From assembly GCA_001897535.1 (NCBI GenBank), contig MKTC01000018.1, forward strand, positions 1 to 64,000: a stretch of DNA of 64,000 nucleotides, written 5' to 3'. The notes beneath the pieces were generated by a model that was not told the DNA's origin, did not search any database, and was given only the letters and a program-made list of their open reading frames with translations. Of this stretch, positions 44,280-47,368 are shown one piece after another. The translations under genes were made by a program, and so were the position numbers. This DNA comes from Bacteroidetes bacterium 37-13 (lineage in GTDB: Bacteria; Bacteroidota; Bacteroidia; Chitinophagales; LD1). Positions within the stretch are counted from its first letter, which is position 1; every line of letters begins with the position of its first letter.

Positions 44280-44513
44280 CTATTCTGCGCTATCTGCTTT
44301 TTTCTTTGGAGCAGCAGCCTTTTTAGCCGGAGCTTTTTTGGCTACTTTTTTCTCTGTAGTTTCTGCGGCAGCCTTTTTAGGTTTGGCTGCTTTAGCTGCT
44401 ACTGTTGTTTCTTCTGCCGAAGCAGTAGTTTTTTTTACTTTTTGCGGACGTGAATTGCCAAAAGAGCCTTTGAAAATCTTACCCTTGCGGCTGCGTTTAT
44501 CTCCTCTTCCCAT
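44280..44513 (-). CDS. 30S ribosomal protein bTHX with histone-H1-like tail
   Basis: 77 residues. The first 25 (MGRGDKRSRKGKIFKGSFG and NSRP) match the bTHX family, small basic proteins bound at the head of the 30S subunit, which usually stop after about 27 residues. Here about 50 more residues follow, rich in Lys, Ala and Pro with AKKAPAKKAAAPKKK repeats like the tail of histone H1 or bacterial H1-like proteins. The extension may bind rRNA or DNA, or simply be disordered. It is flanked by its own -7 box (44539-44546) and terminator. Confidence 0.85.
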   Translation of the reverse strand: MGRGDKRSRKGKIFKGSFGNSRPQKVKKTTASAEETTVAAKAAKPKKAAAETTEKKVAKKAPAKKAAAPKKKADSAE

Positions 44514-44538
44514 GTTCTTTATTTAATTTTATTGCGTG

Positions 44539-44546
44539 CGAAGATA
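44539..44546 (-). promoter_or_regulatory. -7 box of the bTHX gene
   Basis: TATCTTCG on the minus strand (TAnnTTCG variant), 25 bases before the ATG at 44513. Confidence 0.45.
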
Positions 44547-44837
44547 AATTTTTTACTAAGTATTCAAATTATACAGTAGAAGTTTTATTGCGTAGCAAAG
44601 CCTTACAAAGATTAAAGAACTCCAACCTTTTTCACTATGGCTGCATGATGCTGCTGCTGAGAAAATATAAATATTTACACAGATAATCTTGTTATGTAAG
44701 TTGCTTTTTTGGGAAAATGAACCTTTTTAAAGAGTAATCGTATAAAGTAAATATTAAGAGCTATAAGATTCTTTATTTTTACCATTATTTTATTATTATA
44801 GCGCTAAATGAATATAACGGATAAAAAAACTCGACTC
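44547..44837. other. AT-rich intergenic gap
   Basis: 291 bases of AT-rich DNA without a gene and without a clear terminator or dyad. It lies between the bTHX promoter and the start of the disrupted collar-protein gene. No confident promoter was seen for the latter. Confidence 0.5.
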
Positions 44838-44948
44838 ATGAATAACTATTGATTATTAGCAGCAATTGTATTATTTTCAATTACATCTTCTTACTCCCAA
44901 AGCGGCAGGGTAGGAATTGGCACTTCTAATCCCGAACAAAAATTAGAT
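44838..44948 (+). pseudogene. 5' part of the collar-protein gene, broken by a TGA codon
   Basis: In the same frame as the gene at 44949, an ATG at 44838 begins MNNY, then TGA (44850-44852), then LLAAIVLFSITSSYSQSGR and the rest of a normal N-terminus (VGIGTSNPEQKLDVAGN). Changing TGA to TTA would give a perfect signal peptide. No ATG, GTG or TTG lies between the stop and GTG at 44949. The gene is therefore broken, or the base call is wrong. Confidence 0.7.
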
Positions 44949-46409
44949 GTGGCAGGAAATGCCAAAGCCAACGACAAAGTAATAGGCACACGCGGTTTTG
45001 TGGCAGGAAATGTTACTGCCGATACAGCAAAAGCTATTTTTAGTACAGATATTACCAATAAAGGCTTTTATATACCGCGTTTAACTACTTCCCAAAAAAA
45101 TGCTTTATCTCCGGCATCTGCCAATAAAGGCTTGCTGGTATTTGATACTGATTTAAACCGCACCGATTTTTGGAGCGGTACTGCTTGGAAAGCCGTAGGT
45201 GATGGAGCAGGCGGCCCGCCAACCGGAGCAGCCGGTGGCGATTTAACCGGAAACTATCCTGCCCCAATAGTAGATGCAGGAAAAATAGACAATACCAAAT
45301 TAGCAAATGATGCAGTAACAACTGCAAAAATTGCAAATAATGCAGTAACCATTGCCAAACTGCCAAGCGGGGCAACAAGCACAACCTTTTTGCGTGGCGA
45401 TGGCACATGGGTAAATAATTCTATACCGCAAGGTGTAATAGTAATGTGGAGCGGCACAAAAGCAAATATACCAACTGGTTGGGCATTATGCGATGGCAGC
45501 AGCGGCACTCCCGACTTAACCGATAGGTTTATAATGGGAGTAAGCTCTACTTACGATATAAACACTACGGGAGGTGCAAACAACACAACGCTTACCACTG
45601 CCCAGTTGCCCTCGCATACACATGGTTTTACCACAGGCTCTACCACTCCAAGTATGACATTTGCAGGTGCGGCTTTAGGCAATCACTCTCACGCAGCAAC
45701 ATTTACAGGTGCAGCTTTAGGCGACCACTCTCACACTGCAACATTTGCAGGTGCAGCTTTAGGAACCCATACGCACACTGCTACTTTCGCAGGCAATTCC
45801 GTTACTTCTTCTTCTAATGGCACACACACACATTCTATTGATCCTCCTTCTACTAATACAAATAGTACAGGAGCACATACACACACAGTTTCAGGCACGG
45901 CTGCAAGTGCTGGTGCACATACACACGAGTTAAACTTAGCTGACAATGGTTGGCCAGATGGTTCTGGAGATAGACAAAATAATTATTATATGATGGCTCC
46001 CACTAGAGGAAGCAATACCACACATAATGGAACCTTTAGTGCTGGAGCACATACCCACTCCGTTTCAGGTACTGCTGCGAGTACCGGAGATCACGCGCAC
46101 TCTTTAGATATTGCAGCATTCAGCTCGGCAAATGCCGGAGCGCATACACATACTTTAACTGCTACGGGTACGGTAAGCGTAACTGCCGCTTCTGCCGGTA
46201 CACCCGCAGGTTCAGTGAGTGTTGCAAATGCTTCTGCCGGTACACCCGCAGGTTCGGTGAGTGTTGCAAATGCTTCTGCCGGTACGCCTTCAGGTACTAT
46301 TTCCGGTGGCGCACATACACATACTGGCACTACAAATGCCACAGGCACAGGCACACCTATTGATAACCGCCCTGCCTTTTTTAAACTGGCTTTTATTATA
46401 AAGCTTTAG
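44949..46409 (+). CDS. Tail-collar-domain secreted protein with His-Thr-rich repeats (5'-disrupted)
   Basis: 486 residues in the frame open from GTG at 44949; the true protein should begin at 44838. The N-terminus (VGIGTSNPEQKLDVAG upstream, then FYIPRLTTSQKNALSPASANKGLLVFDTD) is common in Bacteroidota surface proteins. A phage tail collar domain follows (PQGVIVMWSGTKANIPTGWALCDGSSG, about 160-200). The rest is a fibre-like array with many HTH, HSH and THTH units, including a 42-bp DNA tandem repeat, and a C-terminus GTPIDNRPAFFKLAFIIKL that resembles tail-fibre endings. It is probably a surface fibre. Confidence 0.75.
   Translation: MAGNAKANDKVIGTRGFVAGNVTADTAKAIFSTDITNKGFYIPRLTTSQKNALSPASANKGLLVFDTDLNRTDFWSGTAWKAVGDGAGGPPTGAAGGDLTGNYPAPIVDAGKIDNTKLANDAVTTAKIANNAVTIAKLPSGATSTTFLRGDGTWVNNSIPQGVIVMWSGTKANIPTGWALCDGSSGTPDLTDRFIMGVSSTYDINTTGGANNTTLTTAQLPSHTHGFTTGSTTPSMTFAGAALGNHSHAATFTGAALGDHSHTATFAGAALGTHTHTATFAGNSVTSSSNGTHTHSIDPPSTNTNSTGAHTHTVSGTAASAGAHTHELNLADNGWPDGSGDRQNNYYMMAPTRGSNTTHNGTFSAGAHTHSVSGTAASTGDHAHSLDIAAFSSANAGAHTHTLTATGTVSVTAASAGTPAGSVSVANASAGTPAGSVSVANASAGTPSGTISGGAHTHTGTTNATGTGTPIDNRPAFFKLAFIIKL
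46188..46298 (+). repeat. 42-bp tandem repeat, about 2.6 copies
   Basis: Two full 42-base units (46188-46229 and 46230-46271) and a partial third, starting GCTTCTGCCGGTAC. They encode ASAGTPAGSVSVAN twice and then ASAGTPSG. The first two differ at one base. Confidence 0.85.
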
Positions 46410-46425
46410 CCAAGATATTTTATAC

Positions 46426-46496
46426 CCTACCGAATTTAAACGCATACCAATAGCAGCATTAAAATAAGGTATTAGAGAGGAACAAAAATCGGTAGG
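46426..46496. repeat. Long hairpin between convergent genes
   Basis: CCTACCGA (46426-46433) and TCGGTAGG (46489-46496) are perfect inverted repeats, enclosing a smaller ATACC/GGTAT pair (46444-46448 and 46468-46472). It fills the gap between the collar gene and xth. It may help end transcription, but a T run is lacking. Confidence 0.4.
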
Positions 46497-46501
46497 AGGT
46501 T

Positions 46502-47281
46502 TTACAAAGCTAACTTGCACAAAATAGGGCAATGGTCGCTGTGCTTGGCTTCGGGCAAAATACCTGCTTCTGTAATATTGTTGCGTAGGCTGTCGGTGGC
46601 GGCAATGTAATCTATACGCCAGCCTTTGTTGTTTGCACGGGCATTTGCGCGGTAGCTCCACCAACTGTATTGGTTCAGCGCTTTTGGGTTTTTAAAACGA
46701 AAACTATCGGTAAATCCGGTAGTAAAATACTTTTCCATCCAAGCGCGCTCTTCGGGTTTAAAACCGGAAACATCTTTGTTGCGCACCGGGTCGTGAATAT
46801 CAATGGCAGTATGGCAAATATTGTAATCTCCGGCTACAATTATCCGCTTTCTTTCCTTGTTTAAGTGATGTATGTAGTTATAAAAATCTTCTAAGTATTG
46901 CATTTTCACTGCTTGGCGTTCATCGCCTGTGGTGCCGCTCGGAAAGTAAGCACTCATCACACTTAGGTCGCCAAAATCCAATCTCAAATTTCGCCCTTCA
47001 CTATCAAATGGTTCGTAACCAATTCCTTCAACAATATTATCCGGTTTTACTTTGGTAAAAATTCCCACTCCGCTATATCCCTTTTTCACCGCAGGAAAAA
47101 TATAACAATGGTAGCCTAATGCTTTAAATGGCTCATCAGAAAAATCTTCGCGGCTCACTTTTATTTCTTGCAGGCACACAATATCTGCATCAATGGTTTT
47201 TAGCCAACTGCTCAACCCTTTGGTTTCTGCGGAGCGCACTCCATTTACGTTGTAAGATAGTATGGTTAAATTTTTCATCAT
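46502..47281 (-). CDS. xth: Exodeoxyribonuclease III
   Basis: 259 residues from the ATG at 47281 or the adjacent one at 47278 (MKNLTILSYNVNGVRSA); the open frame extends 21 codons upstream but adds no homology. Family motifs: LQEIK, GDYNICHTAIDIHDP, NQYSWWSYR and SDHCPI, the endonuclease/exonuclease/phosphatase fold with Asn, Glu, Asp and His active-site residues. It cleaves at abasic sites in base excision repair and removes 3' blocks. Confidence 0.95.
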   Translation of the reverse strand: MMKNLTILSYNVNGVRSAETKGLSSWLKTIDADIVCLQEIKVSREDFSDEPFKALGYHCYIFPAVKKGYSGVGIFTKVKPDNIVEGIGYEPFDSEGRNLRLDFGDLSVMSAYFPSGTTGDERQAVKMQYLEDFYNYIHHLNKERKRIIVAGDYNICHTAIDIHDPVRNKDVSGFKPEERAWMEKYFTTGFTDSFRFKNPKALNQYSWWSYRANARANNKGWRIDYIAATDSLRNNITEAGILPEAKHSDHCPILCKLAL

Positions 47282-47337
47282 CAATTTTTGTGCATAATAC
47301 GGCATTTTATTATTTAATAATTCACAAGTTAAATGAA

Positions 47338-47368
47338 TTTGCACATTCGGGGATTTAATTTAGGTTTG
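47338..47368 (+). promoter_or_regulatory. Consensus promoter of the TonB receptor gene
   Basis: TTTG (47338-47341), a 19-base spacer and TAGGTTTG (47361-47368) match the Bacteroidota housekeeping promoter exactly. The ATG at 47409 is 40 bases downstream. Confidence 0.75.

Follow-up and report, generated by a model that had tools for sequence, protein, structure and literature searches.

A probable recent silencing by an in-frame TGA in a family of exported, phage-fibre-like surface proteins of Bacteroidetes bacterium 37-13

Introduction

Two described systems frame the gene considered here. The first is the tip of the long tail fibre of phage T4, gp37, in which HxH motifs are iron-binding according to PMC11705849. 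The second is the in-frame stop codon of bacterial genes: PMC7918605 describes such stops as tending to be short-lived, on approximately the scale of population polymorphism, and argues that some of them are read through. A small search of the open-access literature for signal-peptide-bearing tail collar proteins of the Bacteroidetes, and for sigma-54-regulated surface proteins of that group, returned no description of the family to which the gene belongs.

The gene lies in a 64,000-nucleotide stretch of DNA at the start of contig MKTC01000018.1 of Bacteroidetes bacterium 37-13 (hereafter the window, contig C18 in our numbering), in whose coordinates all positions are given unless another contig is named. 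It combines a bacterial leader, a tail-fibre-like tip and a stop codon within the leader, and we ask below what that stop most probably represents.

The interrupted reading frame

On the plus strand the gene opens with ATG AAT AAC TAT and an in-frame TGA (44838-44852, the stop itself at 44850-44852), where the homologues have sense codons, and continues directly with TTA TTA GCA GCA ATT. The original prediction placed this TGA within the leader and saw no start codon between it and GTG 44949, and both statements are confirmed: the GTG is the first in-frame ATG, GTG or TTG downstream of the stop. The frame beyond the TGA is open as predicted, but its length had been given as 486 residues, which is the count from GTG 44949; counted from the TGA, the sole internal stop, there are 518 sense codons, and the frame closes at the gene's normal end, a TAG at 46407-46409 (plus strand).

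The remainder of the signal peptide (LLAAIVLFSITSSYSQ, 44853-44900, plus strand) aligns to the signal peptides of paralogues. It is followed by the family N-terminal domain, which starts SGRVGIGTSNPEQKLDVAG and occupies 44901-45245 (plus strand; the 3' limit is approximate), and then by a C-terminal region resembling phage tail fibres and collars (45387-46406, plus strand). The signal peptide had been described as otherwise perfect, and this did not hold: MNNY contains no basic residue, whereas residues 2-5 of the 13 intact homologues include K or H, with R as well in one of them. An upstream in-frame ATG opening ten codons (MNITDKKTRL, 44808-44837, plus strand) would make the n-region of the leader basic, with the same TGA still following.

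TGA as a stop codon in this genome

The claim that TGA is a normal stop elsewhere in the window was borne out. It ends five of the 39 window open reading frames of at least 200 aa, and in four of these a Pfam domain is complete before the TGA (PrsW, histidine kinase and response regulator, as originally named, and a metallophosphoesterase), while the fifth has no Pfam match. These genes bear directly on recoding, whether as selenocysteine or through use of TGA as a sense codon throughout the genome, for which the open frame itself speaks and nothing beyond. No tRNA-Sec was found above threshold, the eight best sub-threshold matches being ordinary tRNAs (ARAGORN), and the UCA anticodon is absent from 32 tRNA matches (150 of 265 first-look candidates scored). 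Since TGA ends ordinary genes and neither kind of tRNA was found, the earlier judgement that recoding is unlikely stands, and we regard it as barely credible.

A multicopy family with exported leaders

The genome that contains the window (G000; 43 contigs, 3.12 Mb, 100% complete) was queried with the post-stop piece of the protein. Five paralogues (two on C23 and one each on C40, C27 and C16) match it with 60-68% identity over 175-194 residues, beginning from within the signal peptide, and two more distant paralogues, on C13 and C20, bring the intact paralogues in the genome to at least seven. Their open frames run to 719-920 codons and share a layout in which a leader of about 20 residues is followed by SGRVGIG; five continue with TSNPEQKLDVAGSAKANDKVIGTRGFVAG, and the C-termini vary among the five close paralogues. 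Matches of some kind were found in 33 of the 60 genomes searched, G000 counted. The window copy has the conserved N-terminal domain (SGRVGIG...) behind a signal peptide that characterizes this exported fibre-like family of the genus. Given its identity to five paralogues, and the placement of the ATG-to-TGA stretch at the homologues' first codons, the window gene model is firmly protein-coding and not a chance frame. The intact members would be exported by means of the leader and would form fibres that sit on the cell surface or extend from it.

With codons numbered from the chosen ATG, every one of the 13 intact homologues has a sense codon at position 5 (Leu and Tyr in four each; Phe, Val, Ile, Asn and Arg in one each). 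Because the window copy has TGA at this codon and none of the 13 is stopped there, its leader is interrupted and it is, as written, a broken copy of the family and not a working member. At the DNA level the leader's hydrophobic core aligns with the paralogues, but the stretch 5' of it resembles them only weakly: the score of codons 1-11 was reached by 11 of 1000 shuffles against C27, 28 against C16, 82 against the first C23 copy (C23a), 86 against C40 and 571 against the second C23 copy (C23b).

Conservation beyond the stop

The shared domain still bears the imprint of purifying selection: dN/dS between the window copy and eight homologues is 0.068-0.100, which falls within the 0.047-0.225 of the remaining 28 pairs, values that are averages, mostly over time preceding the stop. 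Within a 103-column shared core the window copy has two private changes at the 81 columns that are invariant in the other eight, and the corresponding number for the others is 0-4. Stops are produced by 119 of the 4662 possible single changes, and under neutral drift the probability of no further stop in 518 codons is approximately 0.14 at 5% divergence and 0.02 at 10%. With the post-stop frame conserved and no second stop in it, the loss would be recent, unless the base is an error. A collection of genome contigs in which a strain-level comparison was sought yielded only two distant matches, and a collection of viral contigs yielded no exact match around the codon and eight distant phage-type loci.

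A post-stop dN/dS far under 1 is also a signature that PMC7918605 takes as a sign of readthrough. A leaky stop, decoded by a near-cognate tRNA such as tRNA-Trp, would throttle expression without abolishing it and would leave a little exported protein, and a Trp-like residue would presumably suit the hydrophobic leader. We consider such leakage quite improbable: the averages reach back beyond the stop, no homologue examined shares it, and the single tRNA-Trp (CCA), inspected by eye, has five pairs in its anticodon stem, the outermost being G-U, so that the four-pair, UGA-reading form described in PMC13092985 is not evident. An extension of this idea, in which the TGA would be a tolerated throttle or noise switch and rare readthrough would show this particular tip in few cells or molecules as part of a sigma-54-controlled fibre repertoire, is compatible with the conserved frame, and we hold it to be decidedly improbable.

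The sigma-54-type box of the closest relatives

A box of the sigma-54 type (-24/-12; TTGGCAY-N4-YTTG) lies 47-79 bases 5' of the ATG in nine of the 13 intact homologues, including all eight of the closest. The carriers are found in G000 on C16, C20, C23 (two), C27 and C40, and in a second genome of the genus, G002, on C1 (three). The pattern occurs 19 times in G000 compared with eight for the reversed control, six of the 19 being upstream of family genes, and 24 times in G002 compared with six, three of them upstream of family members; G000 holds one match to the sigma-54 DNA-binding family. A search of the region upstream of the window copy (44514-44837, plus strand) found no TTGGCAY-N4-YTTG box, and the window copy thus lacks a feature that marks the closest subfamily and not all members. 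Its absence does not prove silence, as four of the 13 intact homologues (C13, G2C9, G2C5 and G2d) are likewise without it; so is a collar gene on C12.

Two candidate remnants of a box were rejected. The best weight-matrix match in the 150 upstream bases, at 44778, was equalled by 92 of 1000 shuffles and is not claimed as a decayed sigma-54 box, and the sequence nearest to the consensus (8/11, at -149, equalled by 19 of 500 shuffles) has a -24 element without GG.

Exchange among copies

The missing promoter box and the blocked leader would also suit a silent, promoterless and leaderless cassette, whose tip would pass to siblings that are expressed, through recombination at the N-terminal domain that all of them share, and in keeping with this the N-terminal block has 77-82% DNA identity to five paralogues of the same genome with differing C-termini. 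However, in the first 620 nt the window copy has no exact tract longer than 26 bp in common with any of eight homologues, whereas three sibling pairs share tracts of 107-145 bp; the inverted repeats found comprise only three imperfect 14-nt pairs; and the tip occurs in none of the eight homologues whose C-termini were compared. A donor cassette is, in our judgement, highly improbable.

The sibling pairs with long exact tracts (C40/C16 and C23a/C23b in G000, and G2a/G2c on C1 of G002) are divergent outside those tracts, which suggests recent conversion or duplication. Gene conversion of the window copy from its siblings was considered and rejected, its exact tracts being too short. Phase variation by inversion or slippage was rejected as well: no tandem repeat lies at the TGA, the tandem repeats being C-terminal, and for inversion there are only the three weak 14-nt pairs.

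The genomic site and other collar-type sequences

The gene for 30S ribosomal protein THX (44280-44513, minus strand) flanks the collar gene on the left, and a gene of the endonuclease/exonuclease/phosphatase family (exonuclease III type; 46502-47344, minus strand) flanks it on the right. In G002 these two flanking genes lie approximately 0.1 kb apart with nothing between them, as compared with approximately 2 kb in the window, where the collar gene lies inside (compared loci: window 44280-47344 and G002:C1:178273-180006). The genus is represented by three genomes, one per species, and the site comparison rests on G002, the only one of the relatives with an exonuclease locus read in which THX stands beside the exonuclease (loci read approximately 1.5 kb out, with a short THX query). 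The collar gene may have been gained at the window site or lost in G002; either would account for the difference.

Elsewhere in G000, C12 carries a collar gene with an intact frame of 418 codons, and C31 carries the relic of a second collar-type gene (285073-285423, minus strand, inside locus L040), which is interrupted by a TGA and lacks the N-terminal part. On the window's own contig, C18:75000-76301 (L141) holds a 434-codon, lipoprotein-like frame in which 213 codons precede the first ATG, and for which a TTG start near the beginning is plausible.

Is the base correct?

The TGA may be a base error of the assembly, or a minority variant turned consensus, with the gene intact in most cells. 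Such an error would leave the frame otherwise untouched and conserved, as is seen here, and the conserved frame, being equally expected where a single base of an intact gene has been misread, counts in this respect against silencing. Many of the pseudogenes with internal stops that appear in assemblies are artefactual according to PMC11017572, whose authors state that metagenome-assembled genomes were left out of their assessment. On the other side, the window copy is also without the promoter box of its closest relatives, and the collar-type relic on C31 is not explicable by one base error. Moreover, a same-frame scan by eye of 61 chosen open frames (at least 120 codons) across 84 kb of contig C18 (the window plus 20 kb) revealed no other clearly broken frame, so that the assembly shows no obvious burden of errors. 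We consider a wrong or minority base unlikely, though well within what should be allowed for.

Recent silencing as the preferred explanation

The reading that we favour, at a rough probability of 0.6, is that the window gene is a recently silenced copy of a multicopy, birth-and-death family of exported fibre-like surface proteins. It is supported by the stop itself, by siblings that are intact, by conservation of the frame, by the lack of the box, by the empty site in G002 and by one other collar gene that has decayed. Translation would halt after MNNY, before the leader's hydrophobic core is reached, and the first usual start codon at which it could resume is GTG 44949; since a protein begun there or later would have no leader, the exported product would be lost. 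The missing sibling box suggests that transcription of the window copy may be altered as well. We infer that the base is real and the gene silent, and likewise the order in which the events took place. Inactivation, a population variant and an error had originally been put forward as the likely explanations, and with intact relatives present, the box missing and the gene absent at the G002 site, all three are still live.

As a single event this silencing would matter little: it would be ordinary, a nonsense codon in just one member of a repeated surface-protein family. It would nevertheless illustrate cleanly the turnover of a bacterial family some of whose members have phage-fibre-like tips, and it is a warning not to annotate the gene as broken or as intact until reads support the base. 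The family, which combines a shared exported N-terminal domain, varied C-termini and a common sigma-54-like box, may merit more attention than the stop.

Comparison with known systems

The window gene resembles bacterial pseudogenes with a single internal stop in having one nonsense codon inside a conserved frame that is otherwise intact, and in having intact homologues. With the intact paralogues of its own genome (C23 (two), C40, C27, C16, C20 and C13) it has in common the type of leader and the start of the N-terminal domain (SGRVGIGTSNPEQKLDVAG... in five, SGRVGIG in C20 and C13); they differ from it in their unbroken frames, in their other C-termini and, in six of seven, in the sigma-54-like box.

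The closest likeness of the C-terminal region is to the tips of phage long tail fibres, as in T4 gp37 (PDB 2xgf). The tip matches PHROGs tail-fibre families (best E 1.2e-22), and residues 179-441 of the post-stop piece align to the PDB chains 9qgo, 6ov6, 2xgf and 9nxk (E 9e-9 to 2e-5), although the score for Pfam Collar, 20.8 bits, falls below the curated gathering cut-off of 24 bits; searches of plasmid and phage collections returned only partial tail-fibre matches. Like gp37 the window protein has HxH motifs, 11 of them in its tip. Unlike the phage tips, that of the window protein comes after an N-terminal domain common to bacterial paralogues, itself behind a bacterial signal peptide, and its gene has no phage or tail-module neighbourhood, its immediate neighbours being a ribosomal-protein gene and a gene of the exonuclease type.
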